Below are positions 1,056-34,986 of a stretch of 58,717 nt of DNA, one piece after another; position 1 is the stretch's first letter, and each line of letters starts with the position of its first letter. Origin of the DNA: Calditerrivibrio nitroreducens DSM 19672 (GTDB taxonomy: Bacteria; Chrysiogenota; Deferribacteres; Deferribacterales; Calditerrivibrionaceae); the NCBI RefSeq assembly GCF_000183405.1, contig NC_014749.1, positions 1 to 58,717 on the forward strand. Reading direction: 5' to 3'. The notes beneath the pieces were generated by a model. That model was given only the letters and a program-made list of their open reading frames with translations. It did no database searches and was not told where the DNA came from. The position numbers and the translations under genes were made by a program.

Positions 1056-1082
1056 CTGCCATCACCCCATTTTTTGCACCCC
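1056..1082. repeat. Solo end of the CTGCC terminal-repeat element
   Basis: CTGCCATCACCCCATTTTTT followed by GCACC is the terminal inverted repeat seen on the small elements at 7725, 10714, 33821 and 58415. No partner end is visible within a few hundred bases on either side, so this is an orphan end left by deletion or recombination. The rest of 940-1150 shows nothing codable. Confidence 0.6.
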
Positions 1083-1152
1083 TGAACCAAAGATAAATGT
1101 CTCTTCCAAAAATTATGCAATTTGAAATTAAAATCATTTAAATAGATTGATG

Positions 1153-1811
1153 TCAGTAAATATCTCTTATTCTATTAACATAAATTTTAGAGTTTATTAC
1201 ATCTACCTTACAAGAGTTATCTTTGTATAATCCATAAGTATTTTTGTATAGTGTGGAATTTAAAATTTTTACCTGTGATGATACACAATAAACACCAGTT
1301 CCATTTACAGAATTAAACACCTGACTGTCATCTAATTCTACTTCAGAGTTTCAAATCCATATTTGTGGTTAGCTACCTTCATTATTTCCATTTTCGTAGA
1401 TTTTAGAATTTATAATTTTTACTTTACTGTTTTCTTCAGATTTTAATCCGTGGTAATAATTTTTATAGACTTTACAGTTTTGAATTTCCAATTCAGAAGA
1501 ATTGCATCTAATACCACTACTACCAGAATTGTGTATTTCACACTCTATGATATGACCTTGCGAGTTTTCAAAATAAACTTCTCCCTCTATTTTACAGCTT
1601 AATATATTTATTTCTCTTTTACCTATTACCTTTATGATAGGATTCAGATGCATTCTTTGATCTTTTTATTTCCAAATCTATCAAACTAACGTTATCATCA
1701 TCTATAATTATCTCTCCACCTTTAAGAATTTTTATCTTTCCTCCTTTACCTATTAAAGTTTCTTTTAGATACGACTTTTCTTTTACCTCTATGTAACCAT
1801 CAACCTTTATG
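1153..1811 (-). pseudogene. Right-handed beta-helix protein, decayed
   Basis: Three blocks on the minus strand are homologous to the beta-helix protein at 12894-14942. Block one (about 1811-1650) includes IEVKEKSYLKETLIGKGG and GGEIIIDDDN, matching the LRGSGLNKTL/GGELYLDDDV part of that protein. A frameshift near 1655 leads into block two, 1653-1369 (CEIHNSGSSGIRC, CKVYKNYYHGL, NSKIYENGN). After two in-frame stops (near 1369 and 1350) block three runs to 1153 in the same frame (ELDDSQVFNSVNGTGVYC, NSTLYKNTYGLY, NSKIYVN). It immediately follows the third dynamin gene, whose stop lies in an A8 run. The damage is too extensive for a working product as it stands, although read in the other frame the first block is continuous with the dynamin gene. 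Confidence 0.75.
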
Positions 1812-1817
1812 CTATTT

Positions 1818-3566
1818 TTAGATTTTTTTTAAGCTTAATCTTTTCTCTTTGAAGAAGAGATTATCAAATTCTTTTAAAACAATCTCTTCTAAATTTTTTA
1901 GATCCGCTAAGTTCTTTTTATTTTCTGCAATTTTGCTTTGAAATTTAGTTTTTAAGCTATCTAATCTGTCATAAAAAGATGTAGACTTTGCAAGTTTTTC
2001 ATCTTTTCCAACCTGAAAAATGTCAAGTTCCATTGATTTGAACGATGATAAAAAGCTTTCAGCTTCTTTTATGTCGCTCTTTAAAAATGTCTCATAATCT
2101 CTGAAAATAGATTTTAGCTCTTCTCTTAAACTATCTTTCAAATCAGAAGGCCTGTCTTCCTCTTTTAAAAATTGAAATAAACTTTTACCGTGATACCATA
2201 ATTCTTGGTTATTTATAGATGAAAAGGCACTTATCCCTTCCACTTTTATACCATTTTTCTCAAGCTCATTTTTAACTGCCTCGCCAATTTTTTCTATATC
2301 TGGTAAACTCCTTGTATCTGCCTTGTTTAAGGCTATGTATATTTTCTTATTGCTTGAATTAATACCACGTAAAAAGTCTATATCTGATTTTGGAATTGTT
2401 CCGTTTACGTCTATACCTATCAGCCATAATATTACATTGGCTTCATCTATATACTTTAGTGTAATTTCATGATCCTCTACGGATATACTACCGCCAGGGT
2501 TATATCCAGGTGTGTCTATAAAGCAGATGTTTTTGTAATCTTTAAACGGGTTAGATACTATTAAAAACTGCACTAAAGTTCTCATATGAAAACCAAAGTC
2601 TTTTATATTGTAATGGTCAAACATACTTGTGTATTCTGGCTTTATCTCTTTTAATGTGTTGTTTATAGATGCTGCCTTAATATTTAAACTGTCACCATGC
2701 ACTACATAGGTAGGAATGGCTGTTGTAGGGGTTATGTTTGTTGATAGTTGAAAGTTTGAATTATCATTACTGAAAAAAACACTATTTATAAAAGAAGATT
2801 TGCCAGTACTGAATCCTCCGCATATAGCTACTATGTTTTTACTAAATTTATCTTTGAAAGATAAAACAAATTCTATTCTTTCTATTATAGATTTTAACTT
2901 TATTATGGTTTTTGCTTCTTCTTTATAAGGTATTTTGTTGATAAGTTCGACAAAATCTTTTTCTAATAAATTTATAAGTTTTTCCGGACTGTTATCTTGC
3001 TTTTCTTCTTTTGATAGAATAAGGCTTATGGCTTGTAATTTTTTACCCAAATCGTTTCGTTCATTTGTGAGTATTTTAATCTCTCTTTCTTTCTTTTGAT
3101 TTTCTTCATCTAATTTTTCTTTTTCTTCTTCTAAAGTTTGGATTTTGTCTGCCAGATCTGCACATTTGTTCATAAATGTATCGCGTTCTTCTTCAATCTC
3201 ATTGTATTTAGAGTGAAGATTTTTTAATACTAAAGTTTGATTATCGTGTATCTTCTTAAGATCTTCAAGCTCTATCTTGTAAGTTTCTTTCTCTTTTCCT
3301 AAAATTTCTATTGTATCATTGAGTTTTTTATTTAAGTTTCCAATTTCTTCATAATCTGTCAATAAATTACTGTATTTAAGTTGTAATTCAATAAGTTTGA
3401 TGTTTAAGTTTTTGTATTCATCTTCAAGTTTTTTATTTTCACTAATAAGATTACTGTATTTTTTTCTCAGCTTATCATATTCTACAGATATCTCTTCATA
3501 CATCCTTTTAAAGTTTTTTCCAAAAAATACTCTGTATAAAAAGTTCAATATAGTGCTAAAACTCAT
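1818..3566 (-). CDS. Dynamin-like GTPase with N-terminal coiled coil (third of three)
   Basis: This 582-residue protein has a long heptad-rich coiled coil (about 20-185) and then a dynamin-type GTPase domain. The G1 motif is GGFSTGKS at 250-257, a Thr-rich G2 region is near 277-283, G3 is DTPG at 351-354 and G4 is NKAD at 414-417. A second helical region ends at LKKI. Bacterial dynamin-like proteins hydrolyse GTP while remodelling or sealing membranes, and some have been linked to phage tolerance; the role here is inference. It is the last intact gene of a minus-strand set, 122 bases after the 750-residue GTPase. The stop lies directly after an A8 tract, and deleting one A would extend the frame into the beta-helix remnant downstream. 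Confidence 0.85.
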   Translation of the reverse strand: MSFSTILNFLYRVFFGKNFKRMYEEISVEYDKLRKKYSNLISENKKLEDEYKNLNIKLIELQLKYSNLLTDYEEIGNLNKKLNDTIEILGKEKETYKIELEDLKKIHDNQTLVLKNLHSKYNEIEEERDTFMNKCADLADKIQTLEEEKEKLDEENQKKEREIKILTNERNDLGKKLQAISLILSKEEKQDNSPEKLINLLEKDFVELINKIPYKEEAKTIIKLKSIIERIEFVLSFKDKFSKNIVAICGGFSTGKSSFINSVFFSNDNSNFQLSTNITPTTAIPTYVVHGDSLNIKAASINNTLKEIKPEYTSMFDHYNIKDFGFHMRTLVQFLIVSNPFKDYKNICFIDTPGYNPGGSISVEDHEITLKYIDEANVILWLIGIDVNGTIPKSDIDFLRGINSSNKKIYIALNKADTRSLPDIEKIGEAVKNELEKNGIKVEGISAFSSINNQELWYHGKSLFQFLKEEDRPSDLKDSLREELKSIFRDYETFLKSDIKEAESFLSSFKSMELDIFQVGKDEKLAKSTSFYDRLDSLKTKFQSKIAENKKNLADLKNLEEIVLKEFDNLFFKEKRLSLKKI

Positions 3567-3688
3567 ATATAATTATCTCTTCACTCTCTGGAAAACTTAT
3601 TTCTTACTTTTCCTATAAACTTTCCTTTAAATACAACGTCACTCTAATCTTAGATTTTTAAAATAGTTCTAGTGTTTACCATGGCAAA

Positions 3689-5941
3689 TTACACTTCCTG
3701 TAATAGAACTTTTTTCTTTAAATTTTTTAGCTCTTTCGATGTATTGTTTAGTTTGTCTATCATAAACTGCTTAGATTCAATATCTTTCCTTAAGTTTTCT
3801 ATTTCAATCCTATACTTGTCAAATATCGATTTGATAACTTTACTTCCTTTTTCACCTAAATTTTTCTTAATTGTTTTAGAAAATTCATTTAAGTTATCTT
3901 TAAATTCAGATTCCAGGTCATCTAAAAAATCTGTAAGCTTACTACGATAATCTTCTATTTCATCTTCATTTTTTAAAATACCTCTTCTTCGTAAAGAACT
4001 TGGAATTGTGATGTCATCTAATGATGGAAAGTCAATTTCACTTTTTTCTATGCTTGTTATACTTTTTATCATTATATCTTTGTCAATAAATTCATCTCCT
4101 ACAACTTCCCTTATAGTAGATGTAAGCTCTCTACGTAATTTTACTTTCCATTGTTTTATCGCTTCTTCTAACTTTTCTTCAGTTGAAATTTTTTGATTGT
4201 TTACACTTTTGACTAACTCTGCTTCTACATATCCTGTTTTCAAAATCCTTACATTTTCCTCTACTTTCTTTTCTCCAAAAAGAAAATCAGCAAGAAACCC
4301 AAGCAATCCACCTCTTCCTTCGTTTTTTGGCTCCGTTTTGTATCCTTCTCCTACATTTTGAAGGTCATATATAGATTTACTTATATCCATGGTGATTTTT
4401 CTGCTGATCTTTTTTATATCATCAATCAATTCTTCTACTAACTCGTCATACTTATGTTCTACAACTCCCGAATTAGATGTTTTCTTTTGTAGTTCTTGTA
4501 TGTTTTTTTCGAGGTCTTTTATCTCTGTACTTTGTATTTTTGTTAATCTTTCTTCCACAGCTTTAATAAGACCATCTATATACTTTCTAAGGCTTTGAGA
4601 TTTAGCTTTCATGATTTCTTCTGATCTTTTCTTTAAAATCTCCTGTTTTCTCTCTTTTACCTTTTCCAGAGCCTCTACTATTTCAACTATCCCTGATAAA
4701 AGTTTTAGATTTTCCAGTGCTATATCTTTGTTGTCCTCTGAAAAAAAGTCTGGATAGTTATTTGTTAGATTTTTCCAGACTATTTTCATATTATCGTCCC
4801 ACAATTGTTTGTTATCAAAAAGTTTGTATAAACTGTAGCAAGCTCCAGATGATAGAAACATCCTCTCTTTACTTTCTTCAATTAATTGGTTGTAAGTATC
4901 TCCTATTTCGGGACTATTTCTTTTTAAGTCTTTTATGGTTCTCCGTGTGTAATCTGCGAGGTTTTTCTTTATATTTTCAAGTGCTGTAAAAAGGTTCCCT
5001 CTTGATTTTATCTTTTCATCTCCATGAAGCTGTAAATCTACCTGGCTACCTACCAAAAACAGCTCTCTTATACCTTCTTTCATCGTTATTCTGTCCATAA
5101 GATCTAAATCTTCTTCGCTTAGAAACTGTCCCGCATTACTCAATATAAAAACTACGTCTGCGTTTTTTAGCAACTCTCTTGTCCTTGCTTCCCTTGAGAC
5201 TACAGGATCATTTATCCCTGGTGTATCTACTATTTCAACCCCTTTAAGACTTTCTAAAGGTGCTTTTATACGTACACTTTTTGTGTAAGGTGTGTATTTA
5301 CCTTGGGAACCAACATAATCAAGGAGTTTTTTACTTAGTTCTTCAAGGCTATCTGCCGATATAACTTCATTGTTACTAAAATTTTGGTTTAAGCCTTTGT
5401 TTTCCATATCATTGTAATGTTCATATGCTGCTTGAAGATGGATATATTTTTCAAACAGTTCCTTTTTTGCCATATCTTCCGCTTTTTTCTCAATGTTTCC
5501 TGATTGAAGTTCCTTTTCATCATTTTTAAACTGTTCGATGTATTTTTCTTTTAGATCGTTTAGCTTTGTTAAGTATTCATCATGTTTCTTTTTTATCTCC
5601 TTTACATCTTTTTGAGTATAAAACTCTACTTCAGCAGATATCTTATCGTCGTAAGAAAGGAGAGTAAGAGATGCGGTCATAGGTGTTGCTGCTTTTGGAA
5701 GTATGGATTCCCCTTCAAACAGTAAAGCGTTTAATAAAGATGATTTACCAGCTTTAACCCTTCCTACGATACCTATTGTGAGTGTTTTGGAATCTCTATC
5801 TAAATCTGCAAGTTGTTTTTCTAAATCTTCAAGTTTTTCTAATGCAAGATCTTCCTTCAGGTTTTCAGCGTCATCTTTCAAAATAGTATAGTTTTTGTCT
5901 ACTACTGCTTCAACTTCTCTGAAAAGTTTTAATAGCTCCAT
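3689..5941 (-). CDS. Dynamin-like GTPase (second of three)
   Basis: This is a 750-residue large GTPase. G1 is GRVKAGKS at 60-67, the G2 region is ATPMTA near 85-90 and G3 is DTPGIND starting at 239. The G4 position reads SQVD (299-302) rather than the usual T/NKxD, a departure seen in some dynamin relatives. Long helical stalk segments follow, with a short hydrophobic patch (GGLLGFLADFLFG) in the C-terminal half that could be a membrane-contacting paddle. The gene starts 12 bases after the 566-residue GTPase ends, so the two are co-transcribed. Size and the stalk/paddle layout fit a full bacterial dynamin-like protein; partner heteromers, as in known paired bacterial dynamins, are inferred. 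Confidence 0.87.
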   Translation of the reverse strand: MELLKLFREVEAVVDKNYTILKDDAENLKEDLALEKLEDLEKQLADLDRDSKTLTIGIVGRVKAGKSSLLNALLFEGESILPKAATPMTASLTLLSYDDKISAEVEFYTQKDVKEIKKKHDEYLTKLNDLKEKYIEQFKNDEKELQSGNIEKKAEDMAKKELFEKYIHLQAAYEHYNDMENKGLNQNFSNNEVISADSLEELSKKLLDYVGSQGKYTPYTKSVRIKAPLESLKGVEIVDTPGINDPVVSREARTRELLKNADVVFILSNAGQFLSEEDLDLMDRITMKEGIRELFLVGSQVDLQLHGDEKIKSRGNLFTALENIKKNLADYTRRTIKDLKRNSPEIGDTYNQLIEESKERMFLSSGACYSLYKLFDNKQLWDDNMKIVWKNLTNNYPDFFSEDNKDIALENLKLLSGIVEIVEALEKVKERKQEILKKRSEEIMKAKSQSLRKYIDGLIKAVEERLTKIQSTEIKDLEKNIQELQKKTSNSGVVEHKYDELVEELIDDIKKISRKITMDISKSIYDLQNVGEGYKTEPKNEGRGGLLGFLADFLFGEKKVEENVRILKTGYVEAELVKSVNNQKISTEEKLEEAIKQWKVKLRRELTSTIREVVGDEFIDKDIMIKSITSIEKSEIDFPSLDDITIPSSLRRRGILKNEDEIEDYRSKLTDFLDDLESEFKDNLNEFSKTIKKNLGEKGSKVIKSIFDKYRIEIENLRKDIESKQFMIDKLNNTSKELKNLKKKVLLQEV

Positions 5942-5953
5942 GATTACTCCTCC

Positions 5954-7654
5954 CTATGAAAGGTACTTATTGTAACTGTCTACAATATTTTTCTTGATGT
6001 TTTGATATTTAGATATTTTAACTGAAATTTCTTCTGCTTTTTCTTTAAGATTTTTTTGGGCTTGTTCTATCGAATCTTTTTTGAGCCTTAACATATTTTC
6101 ATATTCGTTTATGACGTTCGTTGTGAGTTTTTTTATCTCATTATTCACAATTTCTAAAAGTTTTGGTCTTAGCTCTGCCTTCAATGAAGGTATAATTTGA
6201 GTCATGATTATAGATTTTGCTTTTTCTTTCTGTTTTTGTTCTATGGATGAGGATAGCAACTTATTGACTATGTCAGGAAGTGCGATAATAATAAGCTCTA
6301 AAACTGGAGCAATAAAGTTGGTTGTAACTGCTAAAATTACAGCTGCTGCTCTGGCTGTATTTTTATACTGCTCAAGCTTATTTGTAATTGAAAAAAGTAA
6401 GTTGTCTTTTAACTGTGTAGCTTTTTCTGATATCCAGTTAGTTGGTATATTTACACCTAAATCAGAAGAGTTTTGAATTGATTTTAGATGTACTCCCACA
6501 TCATCAATAATTTCAGAGCCTATGTCAGAAATTATGTTTGGAACATCTACAGAGAGCACATTTACCACCATATCGTTGACTATTTTGGAGAATTTATCCG
6601 GGCTTGAAACTGCAATATTAGCCAAATAATCCTTTTGGGCTATCATCTCCCTCTCTATACTGGACAGTATCCTGTTTACGTTTGTCGAAGAGTGTTTACT
6701 TTCTATTTCTCGAATTTTTTTGTCTTTTTCTTTTATTAGAGACTCTATCTCCTTTTCTAAGGCTTTTATCTCTTTGTCATTTTGTTCTACGGTTTTTTGC
6801 ATACTTGATATTATTGTCTCTATTGTATCAACTACCTGAAAAGTTTTATACTTTAAGTCCGGTAAATACATCTTTTTTATAAGTTCATCTGTATTTAAAG
6901 ATGTAAGTATTTTTTCTAAAATTTTACCGCCATTTTCTCCTACAAGGTGCACTTCTTTATCAAAGTTTAAGTAAGTTTTAATATCTTCCTCTATTTTTTC
7001 CTTTATTGCTAAAACATCTTTCTCTGATTTTAAATTTACCTTGTTTAAGATTACTTCAAAATCTCTCTGCAAACTTTCAAGACCCTTTAACCTGTTTAAA
7101 AAAGATCTTGGTAAAGTCCCGCTTTCTACACTGATTACAACTACATAAAAAATACCTTTCCCTAAGTAATTTAATATTGCCTTGTTGTGGATATCAACTG
7201 GAGACTCAAATCCTGGCATGTCCACCAGAACAGCAGGTTGGATCCTCTTAAGATTTGGATTGTTTAGGTAAACTACCATATACTCGTAAGCATTGGCTTT
7301 TTCTTTTATCTTCTCAAAATCTGATAAACTGTAAATATCAGGTTTATCAGAGTTATCAGACATGATACACTCAATCCGTTCATTTTCTGAATATCTTATT
7401 TCTGTAGCCAATGAAGTTTCTGGAGTTATTCCTACTGGTAGATAGTCAGTTTCTAAGAAAGAGTTTATAAGGCTGCTCTTTCCAGCACTAAAAGGTCCTA
7501 TTATGGGAACTATAATCTCTCTTTGCAAAATATCTTCTTTTAACTCATCAATGTTTAAGTCAATTGAAGATATTGAATCGTGTAGCTCCTGATCTGATTT
7601 AATTTGAGAATCAAGGATACTTAAAAACTCCACCATATTTTCTTTTACCTTCAT
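5954..7654 (-). CDS. Dynamin-like GTPase (first of three)
   Basis: This is a 566-residue GTPase. G1 is GPFSAGKS at 53-60, a G2 threonine lies in VGITPET, G3 is DMPG at 145-148 and G4 is NKVN at 204-207. Coiled-coil segments flank a hydrophobic stretch at about 445-475 (AAAVILAVTTNFIAPVLEL), which could insert into membrane. A strong Shine-Dalgarno sequence (AGGGGGT) lies upstream of the ATG. It is the promoter-proximal gene of the dynamin operon, and a small TIR element (7725-7895) sits about 70 bases upstream. The three GTPases are clearly different from one another rather than recent duplicates, which suggests a multi-component machine. Confidence 0.87.
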   Translation of the reverse strand: MKVKENMVEFLSILDSQIKSDQELHDSISSIDLNIDELKEDILQREIIVPIIGPFSAGKSSLINSFLETDYLPVGITPETSLATEIRYSENERIECIMSDNSDKPDIYSLSDFEKIKEKANAYEYMVVYLNNPNLKRIQPAVLVDMPGFESPVDIHNKAILNYLGKGIFYVVVISVESGTLPRSFLNRLKGLESLQRDFEVILNKVNLKSEKDVLAIKEKIEEDIKTYLNFDKEVHLVGENGGKILEKILTSLNTDELIKKMYLPDLKYKTFQVVDTIETIISSMQKTVEQNDKEIKALEKEIESLIKEKDKKIREIESKHSSTNVNRILSSIEREMIAQKDYLANIAVSSPDKFSKIVNDMVVNVLSVDVPNIISDIGSEIIDDVGVHLKSIQNSSDLGVNIPTNWISEKATQLKDNLLFSITNKLEQYKNTARAAAVILAVTTNFIAPVLELIIIALPDIVNKLLSSSIEQKQKEKAKSIIMTQIIPSLKAELRPKLLEIVNNEIKKLTTNVINEYENMLRLKKDSIEQAQKNLKEKAEEISVKISKYQNIKKNIVDSYNKYLS

Positions 7655-7724
7655 TTTTCAATACCCCCTACAGAATTTTAAAGCATTTTAACATAAATTC
7701 TGAGTTTTTAAAATAACAAATTTC

Positions 7725-7895
7725 CTGCCGTCACCCCATTTTTTGCACTCTAAAATAAGTTCAAAGTTCTACGTTCAAAGTTCAACGTTCTAACGTTCTA
7801 ACGTTCTAACTTTTCAACGTTTTATTCTGGAGGCTTTTACAAATATAACTTATTGAAAATTCAAGATCTAATAATAAAAATGGGGGAGATGATAG
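7725..7895 (-). mobile_element. Small TIR element (MITE-like), copy 1
   Basis: The element is bounded by CTGCCGTCACCCCATTTTTT on one side and AAAAATGGGGGAGATGATAG on the other, an imperfect inverted pair. Inside is the degenerate 7-8 bp minisatellite (units like TTCTAACG and TTCAACG, the complement of TTGAACG), then the conserved internal block CTTTTACAAATATAACTTAT next to TTGAAAATTCAAG. Against the copies at 33821 and 58415 the order of parts is the same. I see no convincing target duplication. It has no coding capacity. It lies just upstream of the dynamin operon. Confidence 0.7.
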
Positions 7896-7953
7896 GATAT
7901 TTCCTTGTTTAGAACTTACTTTTTCTATATAATTTCGTAAAAAAGGAGTTTTT

Positions 7954-8061
7954 ATGAGAATGTCATTAAAAATCGAATTAGAATTTGATGAGGATGAGCT
8001 TTTAAAGAATAAAAAAGGTAAAATTTATGTTTTATTAAATCACGTGCCGATTTTAGGATAA
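7954..8061 (+). pseudogene. 5' part of a small gene interrupted by IS200/IS605
   Basis: An ATG with a good ribosome binding site (AAAGGAG, 5-6 bases upstream) and a promoter-like TTGTTT-N17-TATAAT begins a short acidic frame starting MRMSLKIELEFDEDELL. The IS200/IS605 element enters at about 8044. Beyond it, bases 9806-9907 encode a matching-style tail (KNKISSEIIEQLKRNLEDTL, ending FSEED and a stop). Simple excision would leave the two parts one base out of frame, so the exact junction is unresolved. I do not recognise the product. Confidence 0.4.
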
Positions 8062-8178
8062 TCTGGCGGGAATCCTCTGGGTTTCAACTCAGAGATGAAA
8101 GCCAGATGGTAACTATATGTTATTTATTTTTTTGTTTCATTTATTCTAAAAATTATTTATTTTTGCTATACTATATGT

Positions 8179-8586
8179 ATGAGTAAAATTAATATTAAAC
8201 ATGGAAGAACAGTTGTTTATAATGTGAACTATCATATTGTCTGGTCAACCAAGTATAGAAAAAAAGTTTTGACAGGCAACATAGAGCAAAGACTAAGAGT
8301 ACTTATGAATGAGATAACAAAAGATAAAGGGTTTGAAATAAAATCTATGAAAATCATGCCAGATCATATTCATGTATTTGTGACAGCGCATCCAAAGTAT
8401 TCGCCGTCTTACATTTATAAAATGCTTAAAGGAATATCAGGGAGAAAACTTTTTATCGAATTTCCCGATTTAAAAAAACAATCATGGAGAGGACATCTAT
8501 GGAACCCATCTACTTATATTGAAACCATAGGTCACATATCGGAAGAAACGATAAAAAAATACATAGAAGATCAAAAAAAGAAATAA
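8179..8586 (+). CDS. tnpA: IS200/IS605 transposase TnpA (HUH, Y1)
   Basis: This is a 135-residue single-strand transposase, the usual size for the family. The N-terminal VNYHIVWSTKYRKKVL is the standard start of the fold. The metal-binding HUH motif is in MPDHIHVFV (about 60-68), and the catalytic tyrosine is probably the one in STYIETIG near residue 115. The enzyme cuts and joins single-stranded element ends at hairpins like those at 8063-8108 and 9771-9790. The stop codon overlaps the tnpB start by one base (TAATG), so the two are translationally coupled. Confidence 0.92.
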   Translation: MSKINIKHGRTVVYNVNYHIVWSTKYRKKVLTGNIEQRLRVLMNEITKDKGFEIKSMKIMPDHIHVFVTAHPKYSPSYIYKMLKGISGRKLFIEFPDLKKQSWRGHLWNPSTYIETIGHISEETIKKYIEDQKKK

Positions 8587-9791
8587 TGGTATTAAAAGCA
8601 TACAAATATAGATTATATCCAACGAAAGAGCAGGCAGAGTTAATAGAAAGACACTTCGGGTGTTGTAGATTTGTATGGAATTATTTTCTTTCTTTAAGAA
8701 AGGAAACCTGGGATAAAGAGAAAAAACATTTAAGTTTTTATGAAATCAAAAAACTGCTACCTGAACTAAAAAAACAAAACCCATGGTTAAAAGAAGTAAA
8801 TTCTCAGTCTTTACAGGAAGTAGTGATAGAACTTGAAAGATCTTACCAGAGATTTTTCAAAGGTATCTGTAATTTCCCATTATTTAAAAAGAAGAAAAAA
8901 TCTCAAAGTTTTTCTATTCCGCAACATTTCAGAATAGAGAGTGATAGAGTGTACTTACCAAAGTTCAAGACAGGGATAAAGTTCAAAAAACATAGGGAAT
9001 TTACTGGTTTACCAAAGAGACTTTATATAACCAGAACACCATCAGGGAAATATTTTTTATTAGTTGTATGTGAAACAGAAATAAACGTTTTACCTGAAAA
9101 CAAATACATAGCAGGTGTGGATTTAGGCATTAAAAACTTTGTAACTATAGCCAGAGTTAATAAAGACAATACACTAATTAAAACAGAAAAAGTTCCACAT
9201 CCCAAAACACTACAGAAATATGAAAAACGCATAAAAAGACTACAGAGACAACTATCAAGAAAACAGAAAGGTTCTAAAAACAGACAAAAAGCAAGAATAA
9301 AACTTGCAAAAATCTGGGAAAAAGCAAAAAATGTAAAATACGATTATTTGCATAAGTTGTCTTCAAGGCTGATAAACGAAAACCAAGTTATCTGTCTTGA
9401 AGATTTAAATATCAAGGGAATGATAAAGAACAGAAAATTATCAAAAAACATTTGGGACAGTGCATGGTATGAGTTTATAAGGCAACTGCGTTACAAGGCA
9501 ATGTGGTATGGAAGAAAAATAGCAACTATTCCATTATTTTATCCTTCAAGTAAAACGTGTAGTAATTGTGGATGGATTTTTTCTGATATGGATTTGTCTG
9601 TAAGGGAATGGGAGTGTCCCTGCTGTGGAGCAAAGCATGACAGAGACATAAACGCATCGATAAATGTAGTTAAAGTAGGGATGGAACAGCCCGAATTTAT
9701 GCCTGTGGAGGAAACTACCAGGGTCTTCTCTATGAGAAGGCAAGTGGTTCCTGTGAAGCAGGAAGCGATGCACGGGATTTCAATCCCGTGA
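8586..9791 (+). CDS. tnpB: TnpB, RNA-guided nuclease of IS200/IS605
   Basis: This is a 401-residue OrfB/TnpB. The RuvC-like catalytic residues are all present: Asp in GVDLGIKNF (about 178), Glu in CLEDLNIKG (about 272) and Asp in HDRDINASINV (about 355). A four-cysteine zinc finger (CSNCGW...CPCCGAKH) lies just before the last motif. Proteins of this family use an RNA from the element's right end to cut DNA next to a short motif matching the IS target. The 3' end of the gene overlaps the structured right end, as usual for guide-RNA production. Identity to the copy at 29423 is moderate, so these are different lineages. Confidence 0.93.
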   Translation: MVLKAYKYRLYPTKEQAELIERHFGCCRFVWNYFLSLRKETWDKEKKHLSFYEIKKLLPELKKQNPWLKEVNSQSLQEVVIELERSYQRFFKGICNFPLFKKKKKSQSFSIPQHFRIESDRVYLPKFKTGIKFKKHREFTGLPKRLYITRTPSGKYFLLVVCETEINVLPENKYIAGVDLGIKNFVTIARVNKDNTLIKTEKVPHPKTLQKYEKRIKRLQRQLSRKQKGSKNRQKARIKLAKIWEKAKNVKYDYLHKLSSRLINENQVICLEDLNIKGMIKNRKLSKNIWDSAWYEFIRQLRYKAMWYGRKIATIPLFYPSSKTCSNCGWIFSDMDLSVREWECPCCGAKHDRDINASINVVKVGMEQPEFMPVEETTRVFSMRRQVVPVKQEAMHGISIP

Positions 9792-9801
9792 GCAGGTCAC
9801 G
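9680..9801 (+). ncRNA. Candidate omega RNA (right-end RNA) of IS copy 1
   Basis: TnpB guide RNAs derive from the 3' end of tnpB and the element's right end. Here a block conserved at the base level with the other copy (GTAGGGATGGAACAGCCCGA, 9675-9694 here and 30506-30525 there) is followed by imperfect hairpins and the strong 9771-9790 palindrome. The natural guide would be the host sequence from 9802 onward. This is inferred from family knowledge and the conserved block; no transcript is seen. Confidence 0.45.
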
Positions 9802-10099
9802 AAAATTTATTAAAAATAAAATTAGTAGCGAAATAATAGAACAATTAAAAAGAAATTTGGAAGATACTTTGAATGCAGAAGTTTATATTTTTTCAGAGGA
9901 AGATTAAATAAACAAAAATAAGACTTTTGAAAAATTTAGTTCTCTCTTCTTTTTTACGTAATGAAATAGAGTGCCTCCCGCATTCTTGGAGTAAAAAAAT
10001 ATTTTAACAAATGGGGGATACCAAAAATGTAGTTATGAAATTATTGTCAATTATTTGGATATATGTTATATATTTAAAAATTTTATATAGGGGGTAGTT

Positions 10100-10339
10100 A
10101 TGCCAAAATATTATTGCAAATATTGTGGTGCAAGTGCTTCTTCAGTTTCAAGTTTGACAGCAGGTAGCTGTTCAAGAAATCCTGTAAAAGGTGGAAAGCA
10201 TGTTTTATATGAAGGTTCTGAAAAATCTCAATACGTATGCAAATATTGCGGTATAAAAGCATCAACTATCTCAACTTTGACAGCCGGTACATGCTACAGA
10301 CATCCTAATAAAGGGGGGAGACATGAACCAATGTTGTGA
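10100..10339 (+). CDS. Tandem zinc-ribbon small protein
   Basis: This 79-residue protein consists of two near-identical repeats of about 37 residues, each with a CKYCG knuckle and, after a Ser/Thr-rich stretch (SVSSLTAG, TISTLTAG), a further Cys and a His (CSRNP..GGKH, CYRHP..GGRH). Each repeat probably binds one zinc. Such small proteins are widespread, and I know of no fixed function. A Shine-Dalgarno GGGGGT lies 4 bases before the ATG and an AT-rich promoter-like region precedes it. It stands alone between IS debris. Confidence 0.75.
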   Translation: MPKYYCKYCGASASSVSSLTAGSCSRNPVKGGKHVLYEGSEKSQYVCKYCGIKASTISTLTAGTCYRHPNKGGRHEPML

Positions 10340-10429
10340 TATGAAAAAACATAGTTCATCGCTCCTGAATTTTATATCCTAATTTTTCTAAACGTATTAC
10401 AATATTAATCTAAAAGACGCTAAAATATA

Positions 10430-10952
10430 GTAGTGTATAATTAATCGTGTCATTGAAATCCCCCTTGAAGGGTTGTAGTATTTATCTGCAACAAACAAGA
10501 CAAAAAAACCCTTAAAGAAAGACTTTGCAATGAATAATAAATCAATTACCAAGATATTTCAAGTAAATGACCACTGCATTCCTTCCATTTTTTTACTCTA
10601 ATCTGCAGGTAATTTTTTTCATCTCACAAATCTAAATATCCTATCGCCATTTTAAATAACAGAGACGATTTATAATGAATAAAAATGCTTTAAGGGTGAT
10701 GGTTGACACAATTCTGGCATCACCCCATTTTTATGATTTTGATCATAAGTTTCAATAATTTATGCTTGTAAAAATCTACACAATAAAGAAGAAAAGTAGG
10801 GGCAGACCTGTGTGTCTGCCCTGATGATGCATCTATGGGCAAACGCTCAGGTTTGCTTCTATATAGGGCGAACACATAGGTTCGCCCCTACGTATTGTCT
10901 ATGTATGCAAAAAATGGGGTGACGGCAGTGACACAATTAAGTTGACATTACC
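10430..10952 (+). mobile_element. IS256-family remnant, split by a TIR element
   Basis: The left end (TAGTGTATAATTAATCGTGT from 10431) and about 130 further bases match the intact IS256 copy at 31409, including the leader hairpin and the first codons of the transposase (from about 10531). The match fades near 10580. The right end resumes at about 10676 (ATGAATAAAAATGCTTTAAG) and reaches GGTTGACACAATT, where the 215-bp element of 10714-10928 is inserted. It finishes after that element with AAGTTGACATTACC at 10939-10952. The transposase gene is deleted, so this is an inert relic. Confidence 0.8.
10714..10928 (+). mobile_element. TIR element, copy 2, with 10-bp target duplication
   Basis: It starts CTGGCATCACCCCATTTTTA and ends AAAATGGGGTGACGGCAG, which are inverted repeats. 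The 10 bases TGACACAATT stand immediately before it (10704-10713) and immediately after it (10929-10938), a direct target-site duplication in the right end of the IS256 relic. This is the clearest proof that the family transposes. Unlike the other copies its core has no minisatellite; it holds REP-like palindromes (GGGCAGACCTGTGTGTCTGC at 10801, and GGGCGAAC...GTTCGCCC at about 10866). Confidence 0.88.
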
Positions 10953-10999
10953 AAAAGTTTACTTGTGGACTAAAGAGATAAAGAATGGGGTTGAAATGT

Positions 11000-11136: not shown

Positions 11137-12675
11137 ATGAAAAAACTGCCAATAGGGATACAGACTTTCAGCAAGATAAGAGAAGAAGGGTATATCTATA
11201 TTGATAAAACCGAAGAAGCTTTTGAACTGGTTAATAATTTTACATACGTTTTCCTCTCCCGCCCCCGCAGATTTGGTAAGTCATTATTTGTTGACACATT
11301 AAAAGAGTTATTTGAAGGGAATAAGAAGCTTTTTGAAGGATTATACATTTACGACAAATGGAATTGGGATGAGAAATACCCTGTTATCAAGATAAGCTGG
11401 GCAGGTGATCTTACTACTCTTGAAAGAGTAGAAGATAGGGCAATTGATATTTTTAAAACTAACCAGAGATTACTTGGGATTGAATGTGAAAACAACAAAA
11501 ACCCTTCTTCTTGTTTTAACGAGCTGATACAAAAAGCTTATGAAAAATATAATCAAAAAGTTGTCATTCTCATAGATGAATACGATAAGCCTATATTGGA
11601 TGTGATTGAGAATGTTGAGCAGGCAAAAATAAACAGAGGATTTTTAAGAAATCTATATTCAATCATAAAAGACAACGATGCTTATATTCGCTTTGCCTTT
11701 CTTACAGGAGTGAGTAAATTTTCAAAGGCATCGATATTCAGTGGCTTAAATATGCTTACCGATATATCGCTGAATCCAAAATATGGCAACATCTGTGGAT
11801 ATACCCAGAGGGATATTGAGACGAGCTTTAAAGATTATTTTGTCGATGTGGATATGGAAAAGGTTAAGAGGTGGTATAATGGGTATAATTTCTTAAAAGA
11901 TAATGTTTATAATCCTTTTGATATTCTACAATTTATCAGTAATGGTCTTGTTTTTGATAATTACTGGTTTGAAACCGGAACACCATCGTTTTTGATAAAG
12001 CTTCTAAAAGAGAGGAGATATTTTCTGCCAAATTTTTCAAATATCGTTGTGGATAAGAAACTTCTTTCCAGCTTTGACGTAGAGAATATAGATCTTGAAG
12101 TGATCCTATTTCAATCAGGTTATCTGACAATAGAGAAGGTAATTCAGACCCCCAGAAGTATAGGATACAAGCTTAAAATACCTAATCTTGAAGTCCAGAT
12201 ATCGTTAAATGATTATATACTTAGATACCTCTTTAACTATCGAGAATCTAATGATATTCAAAATCAGAGCTATGATGCATTTTACAATGGTGAACTTGAT
12301 GTGATAAGAGATAACCTTACGACCCTTTTTTCATCGATTCCCTACACCAATTATACAAATAACGAACTAAAGCTATACGAAGGTTTTTATGCCAGTGTTG
12401 TATATTCTTACCTTGCATCTCTTGGTGTGGATTTGATAGGTGAGGATGTGACAAATAAGGGTAGGATTGATTTAACGGTATTTGTGTCAGATAAGATATA
12501 CATTATGGAATTTAAGGTGGATGGTGCAAAAGGTGAGGCCTTATCCCAGATAAAGCAAAAGAACTACGCCCAGAAGTATATGGATAGAGGCAAAGATATT
12601 TACCTTGTGGGTATAGAATTTAGCTCAAGTGAGAGGAATATAGTAAATTTTGAGTGGGAGAAGTTGGAACGTTAG
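11137..12675 (+). CDS. AAA-ATPase-like / PD-(D/E)XK protein (DUF1703 type), copy 1
   Basis: This is a 512-residue protein of the AAA-ATPase-like plus PD-(D/E)XK (DUF1703) family, common in multicopy form in anaerobes. The N-terminal ATPase has a P-loop variant SRPRRFGKSL (41-50) and Walker B VVILIDEYDKP (about 143-153). The C-terminal nuclease-like domain has GRIDLTVFVSD...EFKV (about 442-461), with the Asp and ExK residues intact. The cellular role of the family is not established; its frequency in variable regions suggests genome conflict. Shine-Dalgarno CTGGAGC is upstream. The stop codon lies inside the downstream minisatellite. It is nearly identical to the copy at 37428 over most of its length. 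Confidence 0.9.
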   Translation: MKKLPIGIQTFSKIREEGYIYIDKTEEAFELVNNFTYVFLSRPRRFGKSLFVDTLKELFEGNKKLFEGLYIYDKWNWDEKYPVIKISWAGDLTTLERVEDRAIDIFKTNQRLLGIECENNKNPSSCFNELIQKAYEKYNQKVVILIDEYDKPILDVIENVEQAKINRGFLRNLYSIIKDNDAYIRFAFLTGVSKFSKASIFSGLNMLTDISLNPKYGNICGYTQRDIETSFKDYFVDVDMEKVKRWYNGYNFLKDNVYNPFDILQFISNGLVFDNYWFETGTPSFLIKLLKERRYFLPNFSNIVVDKKLLSSFDVENIDLEVILFQSGYLTIEKVIQTPRSIGYKLKIPNLEVQISLNDYILRYLFNYRESNDIQNQSYDAFYNGELDVIRDNLTTLFSSIPYTNYTNNELKLYEGFYASVVYSYLASLGVDLIGEDVTNKGRIDLTVFVSDKIYIMEFKVDGAKGEALSQIKQKNYAQKYMDRGKDIYLVGIEFSSSERNIVNFEWEKLER

Positions 12676-12809
12676 AACGTTGGAACGTTGAAACGTTAGA
12701 ACGTGAAACGTGAAATGTGAAACGTTGAAAAGCTGGAACGTTGGAACGTTGAACTTTGAAAGTAGAACTTCGAACTTATTTTAGGGTGCAAAAAATGGGG
12801 TGACGGAAG
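12666..12809. repeat. Minisatellite plus right terminal repeat after DUF1703 copy 1
   Basis: The array of AACGTT-type units starts inside the last codons of the gene (TTGGAACGTTAG, encoding LER and the stop). It runs to about 12776 and joins directly to TTTTAGGGTGCAAAAAATGG and GGTGACGGAAG, the right end of the TIR element family. No left end belongs to it except the distant one at 10714, so the gene may be a passenger between ends. Confidence 0.7.
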
Positions 12810-12822
12810 ATCAGTATGATTA

Positions 12823-12851
12823 TTGACATTGTTTCTATTATATTATATGTT
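12823..12851 (+). promoter_or_regulatory. Promoter of the beta-helix/AAA+ operon
   Basis: TTGACA (12823-12828), 17 bases and TATGTT (12846-12851) lie 14 bases beyond the TIR end and about 43 bases before the ATG at 12894. I see no operator-like palindrome. Placement just outside a TIR end is the same as at 22698 and 34027. Confidence 0.55.
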
Positions 12852-12893
12852 AACACAATAAATCAAATATAAAATTATCTTGGAGTAAAAGCT

Positions 12894-14942
12894 ATGTTTA
12901 ATTTAGGAAGGATTGTAATAGGGATAAATATAAAAGATGGTGATAGTGTAAAGTGTATAAAAGAGGTAAATGAGTTTAAAAAATATTTTAAAGATGAGTA
13001 TTTAATATATATTTTAAAAGCTTATGAAAGTGGAGTACTTAAGCAATTCTTTTATGGACATGGAAAAGATGAAATATCAGAGATGTTGGAGCAGGCAAAA
13101 CTAAATGGGAAGCCACAATTTGAAGTATTAAATGATTTAGCTAAAATTTTGGGAATCAGTGAAATAAAATCGGAATCTGTCCTCAAAAATATGCGTATTT
13201 TTGATAAAGAAATTCTCCTTGATAATTTGTTGGAAAACGGAGGGGAGATATATTTGATGGCGGATACCTATGATTTTAAATTTCAAAATAGCAAGCTATT
13301 AAAAAATATTTTTTTAAGAGGTAGTGGTTTAAATAAAACCTTGATAAATATAGGAGGGGAACTTTATTTAGATGATGATGTTGAAATGATTATAGAAAAT
13401 TTTGATTTAAAAATAATTGATAGTTTGAAGATAGAAAATGGTAAAGTAATATTTAGAAATGTCAGTATAGATGGTGGGAGTATTGATTTAACATCTACAT
13501 TTGCGGAATTGGATAATGTCAATGTTTCATCAACAATAAACTCTTATTCTTCAAATTTAATTGTTTCATCTTCTAAAATTTTTGGCGGAGAGAGTTTAAA
13601 TCTAATAAACTCGCAGTCAGAAATAAAAAACTCTCAAATTTATAAAATGAATGGAAATGGTATTGATGCTAAATCATCAAATGTAATAGTTGATAATAGC
13701 GAAATATATGAGAATTTAAAAAATGGCATTGTAATAAAGGAGTCGTCAACATTAACCCTTACATCTTCAAATATTTACAAGAATGGCAGGAAAGATGAAT
13801 GGTATCATCAGATATGGGTTGAAAACTCATATGCAGAGATATCAGATTCAAGAATATTTGAAAGCAAGGGAGGAGCAGGAATTTATGGTGTATTTGCCAA
13901 AATAGTTATAAAAAATAGCGAGATATATGAGAATTCAGGACGCGGCATTTCTATAAGAGAGTCATCAATGCTAATCCTGATGTCCTCAAATATTTACAAA
14001 AATGGCAGGAAAGATGAATGGTATCATCAGATATGGGTTGAAAACTCATATGCAGAGATATCAGATTCTAAAATTCATGAAAGCAAGGGAGGAGTAGGAA
14101 TTTATGGAAATTCTGCTAAAATAGTTATAAAAAATAGCGAAGTGTATGGGAACACAGGAAATGGCATTGGTATGATAGATTCGTCAACATTGACTCTTAC
14201 ATCCTCAAATATCTACGAAAATGGTATGAAAGATAAATCTTATCATCAGATATATGTTGAAAAATCAGATGCAGAAATATCAGATTCAAGAATATTTGAA
14301 AGCAAGGGAGGAAGTGGAATTTATGGTGAATCTGCCAAACTTGTAATAAAAAATAGCGAAGTATATGAGAATTTAGGAAATGGTATTAATATAAAAGAGT
14401 CGTCAACATTAACCCTGATATCCTCGAATATTTACAAAAATGGCACAGAAGGTAAATCGTATCCTCAAATATGGGTTGAAAAATCAGATGCAGAAGTATC
14501 AGATTCAAGAATATTTGAAAGCAAGGGAAGAAGTGGAATTTATGGTGAATCTGGCAAACTTGTGATAAAAAATAGCGAAGTGTATGAAAATTTATGGTAT
14601 GGTATTGAGATAAAAGAGTCGTCAACATTAACCCTTACATCCTCAAATATTTACAAAAATAGATTTACTCAAATATATATTGAAAAATCAGATGCAGAGA
14701 TATCAGATTCTAAAATATATGAAAATAGGAGTGAAGGAGATGGAATTTATTGCATATCTTCAAAAATAGTCATAAAAAATAGCGAAGTATTTGAAAATCA
14801 AGGTGTAGGTATAAATATTCGACGAGATTCAGATGCTTATTTATATAGTGTTGTAACATATAAAAATAAAATAGGATTAAAGCATTATCCATCAATATCT
14901 AAAGAAAACTGTGATTTTAAGGATGGATATCAATATAGATGA
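12894..14942 (+). CDS. Right-handed beta-helix repeat protein
   Basis: This is a 682-residue protein. The first 100 residues or so form a mixed helical domain with no family I can name (KDEYLIYILKAYESGVLKQF). From about 110 the chain becomes short beta-strand rungs typical of right-handed parallel beta-helices, with repeated signatures NSEVYEN, GNGI, ESSTLTLTSSNIYKNG, AEISDSRIFESKGG and SGIYG. The central part is built of 73-residue super-repeats. There is no signal peptide, so it is probably cytoplasmic. It heads an operon with a Ycf46-like ATPase (39 bases downstream) and two small proteins. A decayed homologue follows the dynamin operon (1153-1811). A binding or scaffold role for ligand, phage protein or polysaccharide is inference. 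Confidence 0.85.
   Translation: MFNLGRIVIGINIKDGDSVKCIKEVNEFKKYFKDEYLIYILKAYESGVLKQFFYGHGKDEISEMLEQAKLNGKPQFEVLNDLAKILGISEIKSESVLKNMRIFDKEILLDNLLENGGEIYLMADTYDFKFQNSKLLKNIFLRGSGLNKTLINIGGELYLDDDVEMIIENFDLKIIDSLKIENGKVIFRNVSIDGGSIDLTSTFAELDNVNVSSTINSYSSNLIVSSSKIFGGESLNLINSQSEIKNSQIYKMNGNGIDAKSSNVIVDNSEIYENLKNGIVIKESSTLTLTSSNIYKNGRKDEWYHQIWVENSYAEISDSRIFESKGGAGIYGVFAKIVIKNSEIYENSGRGISIRESSMLILMSSNIYKNGRKDEWYHQIWVENSYAEISDSKIHESKGGVGIYGNSAKIVIKNSEVYGNTGNGIGMIDSSTLTLTSSNIYENGMKDKSYHQIYVEKSDAEISDSRIFESKGGSGIYGESAKLVIKNSEVYENLGNGINIKESSTLTLISSNIYKNGTEGKSYPQIWVEKSDAEVSDSRIFESKGRSGIYGESGKLVIKNSEVYENLWYGIEIKESSTLTLTSSNIYKNRFTQIYIEKSDAEISDSKIYENRSEGDGIYCISSKIVIKNSEVFENQGVGINIRRDSDAYLYSVVTYKNKIGLKHYPSISKENCDFKDGYQYR
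13700..14790 (+). repeat. Intragenic 219-bp tandem repeats in the beta-helix gene
   Basis: The codons for NSEIYEN/NSEVYEN recur at about 13921, 14140, 14359, 14577 and 14784, a spacing of 219, 219, 218-219 and 207 bases. Neighbouring units are almost identical in places: the stretch around AAAGATGAATGGTATCATCA is the same near 13790 and 14010. DNA-level identity implies recent expansion and the potential for in-frame gain or loss of 73-residue blocks. Confidence 0.8.
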
Positions 14943-14981
14943 TAGAAATAAGTATTTTAAAAAATTAGTAAGGATTATATA

Positions 14982-16511
14982 ATGATGGATTACAGAAGAT
15001 CATGGGAAAAAATTAAAGAAAAGATTCTCACACATATAAATTGTGATGATTATAAACTTTTTTATGTATCAACTATTGAAGAGACAAAAGTTTTAAAAAT
15101 GTTAGGGGAGATTGCGGACCAAAAAGATGTTTTTCTGTATACTTATGATATTGCAAGTGGTTTAAAATGTGACAAAGATAAGAGGATAAAAAATCTTTCA
15201 GATGACTTCAAAAAAGATCTCTCTTCTGTTATTGAATGGGTCGAAGGACAAAAAAAGGGTTATCTTGTTTTTGTTAATATAAATCAGCATATTGAGCAAA
15301 ATTATTTTTTAATAAGAAAAATCAAAAATTTTGTAAACTCTATAATTGAAAATAATTATTATATAAAGATTTTTATGGTTTCTCAGTTTGTAAGAATTCC
15401 AGATGAACTTCAACATGAAGCATGTTTTATTGATTTCCCATTACCTACAAGAGATGAAATAAAAGATATAGTTGATAATTTTTTCAAAATAATACAGAAT
15501 GAACCTACAAAAGAGTTTAGAGAACAAATAATTGATAGTTTGTTGGGACTTAGAGAAATTGATATAGTAAATGCTTTGAAGTTTGCTCTATATAGTGGTG
15601 CATTAGATAAAGGAGATGTCCATACAATAATAGATATAAAAAGCCAGATTATTAAGAAAGAAAGCCTTCTGGAATTTATTAAAATAACAGAAAATATAGA
15701 AAACGTAGGGGGTATGAAAAATTTAAAAGATTGGGTTTTGCAAAAGAAAAAAGTTATTTTTAATTTGTCAGATGCATATAATTACGGGTTGGAAAATCCT
15801 AAAGGAATTTTACTTTTTGGGATGCCTGGATGCGGTAAAAGTCTGGTAGCAAAGGTTATTTCTAATGAATGGAAATTACCCCTTCTAAGGCTTGATATAG
15901 GTATGATACTTGGACCCTATGTTGGGCAATCTGAAGAAAACATCAGAAGAGCAATAAAGATAGCGGAATCTATTGCACCTGTTGTTCTCTGGATCGATGA
16001 ACTCGAAAAGGCTTTTGCAGGAATCAGTGATGGTAACAGTGGAGGATCGGATGTGATGAAAAGAGTTTTTGGTTCTTTCCTAACATGGATGCAAGAAAAA
16101 ACAAAACCTGTTTTTGTTGTAGCAACAGCAAATGATATATCGGCAATACCACCGGAATTTTTGAGAAAAGGTCGCTTTGATGAGATTTTTTATGTGGATT
16201 TACCTAATAAAGATGGAATAAACGAGATTTTGAAGATACATCTTAGAAAAAGGAATAAAGAAAGTTGGCATGAATTTTTTCAAGAATTTATGCCTAAGTT
16301 GAGTGGTTTTTCTGGTGCGGATATAGAAGCTCTTGTTAAAGAGATAATAGAGCTTTCTTTTGTGAATAATATGACGAATAAAAAAGATGACATTAGCAAG
16401 TTTATTGAAAAAACAATTGGAGATTTTAAACCCATTACAGCTACAATGAATTCGAAAATTGAAAATTTAAGAAATAAGATGAAAGAAATAAATGCAAAAT
16501 CTGTAGATTAG
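14982..16511 (+). CDS. Ycf46-like AAA+ ATPase
   Basis: This 509-residue protein has the whole layout of the Ycf46 family: an N-terminal domain (about 1-230) and then a single AAA+ module entered through NVGGMKNLKDWVLQKKK. Walker A is GMPGCGKS (about 285), Walker B is VVLWIDELEKAF (about 333-344), sensor 1 is in VVATANDIS and the arginine finger is in FLRKGRFDEIF (about 393). The C-terminal lid has SGFSGADIEALVKE. Ycf46-type proteins are known from plastids and many bacteria but are poorly understood; the AAA+ core resembles FtsH/Cdc48 remodellers. Here it sits between a beta-helix protein and two small proteins with close spacing, so it is probably the motor of that complex. Confidence 0.88.
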   Translation: MMDYRRSWEKIKEKILTHINCDDYKLFYVSTIEETKVLKMLGEIADQKDVFLYTYDIASGLKCDKDKRIKNLSDDFKKDLSSVIEWVEGQKKGYLVFVNINQHIEQNYFLIRKIKNFVNSIIENNYYIKIFMVSQFVRIPDELQHEACFIDFPLPTRDEIKDIVDNFFKIIQNEPTKEFREQIIDSLLGLREIDIVNALKFALYSGALDKGDVHTIIDIKSQIIKKESLLEFIKITENIENVGGMKNLKDWVLQKKKVIFNLSDAYNYGLENPKGILLFGMPGCGKSLVAKVISNEWKLPLLRLDIGMILGPYVGQSEENIRRAIKIAESIAPVVLWIDELEKAFAGISDGNSGGSDVMKRVFGSFLTWMQEKTKPVFVVATANDISAIPPEFLRKGRFDEIFYVDLPNKDGINEILKIHLRKRNKESWHEFFQEFMPKLSGFSGADIEALVKEIIELSFVNNMTNKKDDISKFIEKTIGDFKPITATMNSKIENLRNKMKEINAKSVD

Positions 16512-16525
16512 AAAAGGAGGATTTT

Positions 16526-16840
16526 ATGAAAGAAATTTCACCGGAGTTTATAAAGGAGATATCGAGATTTGCAGATGAAATAACGGATGAATTCATGAAA
16601 AATCAAGATAAGGATCCATTGGAGTTTTCTATACAATTAATTATGAAGTATAAGGATATTTCTTATGAAGAAGCTAAAGATTATTTGAAAAGAATAATAG
16701 AAGGTATTTTGCGATACAGAAATATGGATGAAAATATAAGTATTTCAGAAATTACAAAAGGTGAAATTAAAGACGAGCAACTTGCGGAAATAACCGAAGA
16801 TTTAGTTGATATCTCTAAAAAAATGTTAGAATCTGAATAA
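16526..16840 (+). CDS. Small acidic helical protein in the beta-helix/AAA+ operon
   Basis: This is a 104-residue, highly charged, helix-rich protein (ISRFADEITDEFMKNQ, DISYEEAKDYLKRIIEGILR). It has no transmembrane segment, cysteine or catalytic motif I can see. The start is well supported by AAAGGAGG just upstream, 14 bases after the ATPase stop. I do not recognise the family. It could be an adaptor or an immunity-type partner for the 146-residue protein that follows; this is a guess from position only. Confidence 0.75.
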   Translation: MKEISPEFIKEISRFADEITDEFMKNQDKDPLEFSIQLIMKYKDISYEEAKDYLKRIIEGILRYRNMDENISISEITKGEIKDEQLAEITEDLVDISKKMLESE

Positions 16841-16859
16841 TATTTTTAGGGGGATAAAA

Positions 16860-17300
16860 ATGAATGATAAAAATGAAAAAAATTTTACTTTAGAGGATAT
16901 TATAAATAGTATTGCTTTGGTAAGAGCACAAGAAGCAGGGCTTTTGGGAAATGAACAAATCAAACCTGAAGATGCAGGAATACTGGGAGCATTGTCTACA
17001 GATTTATTGGATATATTTAACAAGGTATTAAAAAATGAAATATCGAAAGAAAAAGCATCTATCGAGATTAAAGAACATACAAGTAAGGCATTCAAAGCCT
17101 TGGTTTCAAATGTATATGACATAGCTACGAATTTTGCTGTTTCTGCAACAAAAAAAATCCCTATTATAGGCCCTGTTTTGAGTACTACAATAAAAGTAGT
17201 AGCAGAAAGAGCAAAAAAACCTGTTGTTAATAAAATTGTGGAAGCTGGTATGAAAATTGCAAAAAGTGTAGAGAAACTTTTTGATTCATTATTCTCATAA
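16860..17300 (+). CDS. Small protein with amphipathic C-terminus (beta-helix/AAA+ operon)
   Basis: This is a 146-residue protein. The first half is soluble and helical (LEDIINSIALVRAQEAGLLG). The second half is rich in small and hydrophobic residues with interspersed lysines (FAVSATKKIPIIGPVLSTTI, KVVAERAKKPVVNKIVEAGM), a pattern compatible with membrane-associating helices. Shine-Dalgarno AGGGGG lies 5 bases before the ATG and the gap to the preceding gene is 19 bases. No family is recognised. A membrane-acting effector held by the ATPase is one reading; a structural subunit is equally possible. Confidence 0.72.
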   Translation: MNDKNEKNFTLEDIINSIALVRAQEAGLLGNEQIKPEDAGILGALSTDLLDIFNKVLKNEISKEKASIEIKEHTSKAFKALVSNVYDIATNFAVSATKKIPIIGPVLSTTIKVVAERAKKPVVNKIVEAGMKIAKSVEKLFDSLFS

Positions 17301-20890: not shown

Positions 20891-20927
20891 AATCAGTCTG
20901 GAGCATTGATTTGATTTTGTACGAGTA

Positions 20928-21004
20928 ACGTTAGAACGTTGAACCTTGAACGTAGAACGTTGAACATTTTTATCATTTGACAATTTATCATATTATACTA
21001 TAAT
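20928..21004. repeat. Minisatellite and promoter, left flank of DUF1703 copy 3
   Basis: A shortened array (AACGTTAGAACGTTGAACC and following units, to about 20970) precedes TTGACA (20977-20982), N16, TATAAT (20999-21004). The flank is like that of the other copies but somewhat diverged. Confidence 0.65.
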
Positions 21005-21038
21005 TATTTACATAAAGTATTATCATCTGGAGCAAATA

Positions 21039-34971: not shown

Positions 34972-34986
34972 CTATGTAGATATATT

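Follow-up and report, generated by a model that had tools for sequence, protein, structure and literature searches.

A conserved, mobile trio of dynamin-like GTPase genes on the plasmid of Calditerrivibrio nitroreducens

The plasmid of the hot-spring bacterium Calditerrivibrio nitroreducens carries an operon for three dynamin-like GTPases, here called D2, D1 and D3, and our analysis showed that this trio is a conserved, horizontally moving unit and not a local oddity, a stronger result than had been claimed in a sequence-only reading of the same DNA. The window analyzed is the entire 58,717-bp plasmid, which is contig 1 of 2 in the 2,216,552-bp genome; for strain Yu37-1T, a chromosome of 2,157,835 bp has been published along with this plasmid of 58,717 bp (PMC3072091). 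With moderate confidence, we regard the operon as one case of a conserved, mobile D2-D1-D3 system related to the paired bacterial dynamins, in which D1 and D2 would tether membranes, D3 would regulate them and the membrane would thereby be protected. In the order in which they are read, the three genes are:

5954-7654, reverse strand: D2, a dynamin-like GTPase of 566 amino acids (aa), Cj-DLP2 type, with an altered G4 motif (NKVN) and a hydrophobic segment at about residues 439-457
3689-5941, reverse strand: D1, a 750-aa dynamin-like GTPase of the Cj-DLP1/BDLP1 type, with an altered G4 motif (SQVD), the alteration being family-wide
1818-3566, reverse strand: D3, a 582-aa third dynamin-family GTPase, with an N-terminal coiled coil, a GTPase domain with canonical NKAD and a short helical C-terminus

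The sequence-only reading had claimed three distinct, intact dynamin-like GTPases in one operon, and the open reading frames (ORFs) bear this out, since the Dynamin_N (PF00350) scores of D2, D1 and D3 (60.8, 71.5 and 54.4 bits, respectively) all exceed the curated Pfam cut-off of 27. Pseudogenes among the three would have told against that reading, and none is evident: each ORF is open and aligns over most of its length, at 35-37% identity, with its orthologue in a second Deferribacterales genome (G017). D2 and D1 are separated by 12 bp and D1 and D3 by 122 bp, a gap unlike the abutting or overlapping D1 and D3 genes of G017, Pseudomonas, and Escherichia. An Rfam scan near the operon revealed no RNA, and promoter-like and terminator-like sites were no more frequent than in shuffled sequence.

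The spread of the trio was examined by tblastn of 72,556 plasmids with D3, D1, and D2 as separate queries, at limits of 1e-3, 1e-10, and 1e-6, respectively, which excluded more distant dynamins. Each query returned the identical 14 plasmids (10 from Escherichia, two from P. aeruginosa, and one each from Photobacterium ganghwense and Moraxella osloensis). G017 is the one other genome among 51 of the phylum to hold the trio; it has the same D2-D1-D3 order, and its copy is located on the main 3.2-Mb contig. Six trio types were thus available for comparison (Calditerrivibrio, G017, Pseudomonas, Escherichia, Photobacterium, and Moraxella). The gene order is retained in Escherichia and Pseudomonas, the Photobacterium order is D2-D3, two small genes, then D1, and the Moraxella trio consists of larger proteins with one interposed gene. 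Among complete E. coli genomes, a near-identical copy occurs in five out of 5,426 and is plasmid-borne every time. Some copies have a split member (D2 in pPAG5, D1 in pZ1323CEC0015-2), as would be expected of an accessory trait. Viral contigs and phages searched with D3 contained no relatives, and the sole match in one genome-contig scan with D3 was rejected as a trigger-factor false positive (L010).

A phylogeny of the three GTPase domains, which had been proposed earlier, was constructed by maximum likelihood and recovered three separate clades, with strong support for D1 (100/100) and D3 (100/99) and weaker support for D2 (71/70), where the Moraxella branch is very long. Within every orthogroup, the sequences of Calditerrivibrio, G017, and Pseudomonas cluster together (D1 99/100, D2 100/98, D3 99/99), apart from those of Escherichia, Photobacterium, and Moraxella. 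Since the three orthogroup clades repeat the same deep organism split, the paralogues are old and appear to have moved together across phyla.

Comparison of motifs and predicted structures showed that the three orthogroups also differ in kind. The altered G4 motif reported for one member is that of D1, while the NKVN of D2, also non-canonical, had gone unmentioned. In place of the plasmid's SQVD, the five relatives of D1 have SQID, SQID, SKMD, GQLD, and TQRD, in which the aspartate is invariant; because the motif is altered in all six D1 members, the alteration is a family feature and not decay. The D2 motif varies (NKVN on this plasmid; SKTN, SKCN, TKCD, and TKTD among other members), and that of D3 is NKAD in four of five family members and SRAD in Photobacterium. 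The long coiled coil that had been noticed in one protein lies at the N-terminus of D3, with helices predicted at residues 17-90 and 97-187; the single-sequence AlphaFold2 model behind this prediction is weak overall (mean predicted local distance difference test score 54.7; predicted template modelling score 0.31) and was used for the coiled coil only. By hydropathy, every D2 measured, i.e., all but that of Moraxella, has a strong hydrophobic segment in its later part (Kyte-Doolittle mean of ~2 over 19 residues); D1 has no clear segment, and this plasmid's D3 has none beyond the GTPase domain. Against solved structures, the single sequence of D1 resembled Cj-DLP1 and BDLP1 and that of D2 resembled Cj-DLP2, and family profiles gave Cj-DLP1 as the best match of D1 (E 1.2e-22) and Cj-DLP2 as that of D2 (E 4.7e-16), the D2 profile also weakly reaching LeoA (4aur, E 0.004). 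D3 as a single sequence matched nothing in the PDB, and its family profile matched mainly GTPase domains, with Cj-DLP1 at the top. Judged from sequence, D3 is a distinct third partner to the Cj-DLP1/2-like pair of D1 and D2.

The natural model for D1 and D2, by analogy with the Cj-DLP1/2 structure (PMC6104087), would be a membrane-tethering hetero-oligomer in which D2 would provide a hydrophobic, membrane-inserting tip and the two proteins, consuming GTP, would together hold and remodel the inner membrane. Since D3 has a coiled coil and full GTP-binding motifs but shows no obvious membrane segment, we see it as a third, regulatory or coupling GTPase, which would probably act through G-domain contact with D1 or D2. 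The complex, this division of labor and a protective role are inferred: like DynA in Bacillus subtilis, the trio would most likely shield the membrane when phages lyse the cell or the envelope is otherwise damaged. The neighborhoods of the other copies bear on this role. A WYL-domain regulator lies upstream of the trio in both Pseudomonas and G017, and ZorC and ZorD of a Zorya system are found just beyond that regulator in Pseudomonas; because of these neighbors, membrane protection or anti-phage defense is our best guess. Members of the PADLOC candidate family PDC-S01 are situated ~10 kb off on both flanks of the G017 copy, which may simply reflect a repeated mobile gene.

Several observations weigh against a protective role and against the system as drawn here. 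The sample of organisms is small, the Calditerrivibrio copy adjoins neither a WYL regulator nor a recognized defense gene, and the Escherichia copies are found among plasmid maintenance genes (near parM and parA), not defense genes. PADLOC matches were weak and partial for D1 against LeoBC (E 7.7e-7, profile positions 46-430 of 601) and for D2 against LeoA (E 1e-3, positions 11-76 of 577 only), for which models the library gives no cut-offs, and D3 matched no PADLOC model. The LeoA-LeoBC defense system is also called Eleos. Finally, a dynamin pair in an island moved by a jumbo phage failed to protect against the phages used to challenge it (PMC12595487). If phage protection were nevertheless true, the trio would add a membrane-level defense that PADLOC models detect only weakly.

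A bolder form of this idea, which we consider rather unlikely, is that of a dedicated mobile membrane-immunity system in which three obligately co-inherited dynamins work together, D3 being a GTPase regulator that switches on the D1/D2 tethering machine in phage attack, and in which solenoid accessory genes are exchangeable (E. coli having a Sel1-type gene and Calditerrivibrio perhaps formerly a beta-helix one). On the E. coli plasmids, the end of D3 is overlapped by a fourth gene, whose 829-aa product carries a Sel1-repeat or CFI-box annotation but has a Sel1 score under the Pfam cut-off. BLAST showed no mutual relation among the accessory proteins that accompany the trio in Photobacterium, Moraxella, and E. 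coli. The Calditerrivibrio plasmid itself encodes a 246-aa Sel1-repeat protein at 24212-24952, with near-identical DNA repeats of ~108 bp, a type annotated beside the E. coli trio dynamins too.

A serious alternative to cell protection, although we consider it rather unlikely, is that the trio serves to secrete proteins or release vesicles, the role put forward for the LeoABC proteins of enterotoxigenic E. coli. Deletion of leoA or leoB there halves vesicle-borne markers (PMC4159319), D2 shares the structural subtype of LeoA via Cj-DLP2 (PMC6104087), and the D2 profile weakly reaches LeoA, as noted above. However, plasmid placement and the WYL and Zorya neighbors suit defense better than vesicle release, and no secreted factor was present among the neighbors examined. 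General maintenance of the plasmid or cell envelope (e.g., partitioning of DNA or membrane), with no phage role, seems improbable. It would fit the plasmid-borne copies, the parM and parA genes nearby in Escherichia and the location of the Photobacterium copy within conjugation genes, but the G017 copy resides on a main contig, and the rarity of the trio per host group, as in the E. coli genomes, together with its occasional breakage, suits an accessory trait.

Directly after D3 the operon runs into the remains of a beta-helix gene:

1138-1800, reverse strand: decayed beta-helix fragment with a frameshift and several stops, related to the 682-aa protein encoded at 12894-14942; certain for 1138-1590, probable for 1590-1800

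The presence of this decayed relative had been claimed, and both its homology and its stops were confirmed. By tblastn, the 682-aa protein had a match within 1900-901 on the reverse strand (E = 8e-24, 148 residues, 38% identity, with in-frame stops), the match at 1138-1590 in a genome search contains two TGA and two TAA codons, and the remaining 94-aa ORF at 1369-1653 matches Pfam Beta_helix (E = 7.7e-9). A further stretch at ~1790-1640, in a second frame, is probably likewise beta-helix; its score is weak and was reached by 10 of 1000 shuffles. The intact beta-helix operon (12894-17300) encodes the beta-helix protein, an AAA ATPase, and two small ORFs. Its AAA protein belongs to a broad AAA family present on hundreds of plasmids, and three loci with AAA relatives that we viewed had no annotated beta-helix neighbor; on a Treponema plasmid, the AAA relative adjoins a phage baseplate V gene.

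The beta-helix had been proposed to serve several effectors in turn as a shared sensor or scaffold. That it is a true but broken component of the trio, whether shared in this way with the 12.9-17.3 kb operon or as a former C-terminal domain of D3, we regard as highly improbable. On the strand that encodes D3, the fragment does begin almost directly past the D3 stop, and a slip of one base within the A8 run ahead of that stop would fuse the frames. Solenoid-type genes also follow dynamins elsewhere: in E. coli, D3 is succeeded by the Sel1-annotated gene, and the Cj-DLP1/2 genes are succeeded by an HcpA-like one (PMC6104087). However, no beta-helix gene was seen beside the trio in the stretches examined from the five other types, a result that the sequence-only reading had itself named as refuting the proposal, and the 682-aa protein had no homologue beyond its own plasmid in the 51 phylum genomes, the 72,556 plasmids or viral contigs. 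D3 is, moreover, already complete: it ends where its G017 orthologue ends, which ruled out a D3-beta-helix fusion broken at the A8 run as the principal explanation. Since the five other trio types inspected lack the beta-helix and the only homologue detected for the relic is on the same plasmid, the relic is judged to be a local leftover and no component of the dynamin system. It probably arose by recombination, the plasmid being rich in repeats: the dynamin and beta-helix operons share an upstream module (74 bp, 93% identity), which offers a plain route for a stray fragment. The last alternative, that three unrelated dynamins were gathered by chance on a mosaic, repeat-rich plasmid, is almost certainly wrong: another type of dynamin trio in the same order, Deferribacterales, might seem to favor it, but the three orthogroups stay distinct across phyla and co-occur in 14 of 14 matched plasmids.

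Among the repeats of the plasmid is a 24-bp element, GTGCAAAAAATGGGGTGACGGCAG, of which the plasmid has seven copies and the chromosome 20 (27 in total, with 0 expected by chance), a density ~13-fold higher on the plasmid. Its plasmid copies are at 1056-1079, 7725-7748, 10905-10928, 12786-12809, 22659-22682, 33821-33844, and 40711-40734, of which three adjoin the operons discussed above:

1056-1079, reverse strand: copy immediately beyond the relic, oriented like the copy upstream of D2
7725-7748, reverse strand: copy 71 bp upstream of D2
12786-12809: copy 85 bp upstream of the beta-helix operon

The copies before the dynamin and beta-helix operons lie behind AT-rich iterated sequence. The beta-helix relic may have been left by recombination between copies of this kind. 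On the chromosome, at 2014000-2032000 (L016), dynamin-like genes (Dynamin_N with DLP_helical, PF18709) lie in pieces at ~6089-6940 and 12127-15344 of that stretch; a transposase gene is interspersed with them, and the 24-bp element occurs three times in the vicinity. A dispersed plasmid family is formed by four copies of an AAA-ATPase_like/PDDEXK_9 gene (11137-12675, 17742-18872, 20927-22612, and 37428-38966), some of them broken, with 80-97% DNA identity. Elsewhere, the DNA methylase (N6_N4_Mtase) at 34105-35571 and the HNH endonuclease that comes after it are likely a restriction-modification pair, and from 42491-44120 onward a cobalamin riboswitch precedes a CobB/CobQ-like gene and many further genes on one strand, probably a cobalamin pathway.

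In the literature searched we found no description of a D1-D2-D3 system, which is weak evidence of novelty since subscription journals were largely outside the scope of the search. Bacterial dynamins have been described mainly as singles or pairs, and the presence of D3 with the pair in every matched plasmid would make it an unstudied subunit of a three-part machine, the function of which the E. coli plasmid copies make testable in laboratory strains.

Among known systems, the closest likeness is to Cj-DLP1 and Cj-DLP2 of Campylobacter jejuni (PDB 5owv), which assemble as a 2:2 tetramer that has GTPase activity and binds lipid (PMC6104087). As in that pair, the D1 and D2 genes adjoin, and each protein is closest to its own pair member among solved structures; unlike it, the trio adds a third GTPase and its D2 gene comes first. 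Cj-DLP1 carries an N-terminal assembly domain of about 119 residues (PMC6104087), whereas D1 has no such long domain (its P-loop is at residue 60, and the profile aligns from Cj-DLP1 residue 125) and its G4 motif is altered where Cj-DLP1 aligns as TKAD. The earlier expectation that dynamin loci usually hold one or two members stood only in part, as loci with three are commoner than assumed, including LeoABC, an island of Helicobacter pylori reported with three dynamins (PMC8935386), and a different trio in another Deferribacterales genome (G009):

L024 (G009:C1:124000-141000), 4733-10998: dynamin trio of 588, 608, and 538 aa on one strand, with two small genes interposed

This trio falls outside the D1, D2, and D3 clades of the tree, its placement being unsure on long branches. 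LeoABC of E. coli H10407 likewise has three dynamin-like genes, but LeoC (206 aa) and LeoB (572 aa) are described as the two parts of a single split dynamin (PMC4159319). It resembles our system as a three-gene dynamin operon, with D1 best matching LeoBC and D2 best matching LeoA among PADLOC models, but D1 is a single 750-aa ORF and no split dynamin, there are three complete GTPase domains, and D3 is a separate orthogroup. DynA, a bacterial dynamin of B. subtilis that delays phage lysis, is alike in the function proposed here, with an anti-phage, membrane-protecting effect and two cooperating GTPase heads (PMC8844932), a likeness drawn from function and not from sequence comparison; there, however, the two heads are fused in a single protein and D3 has no counterpart.

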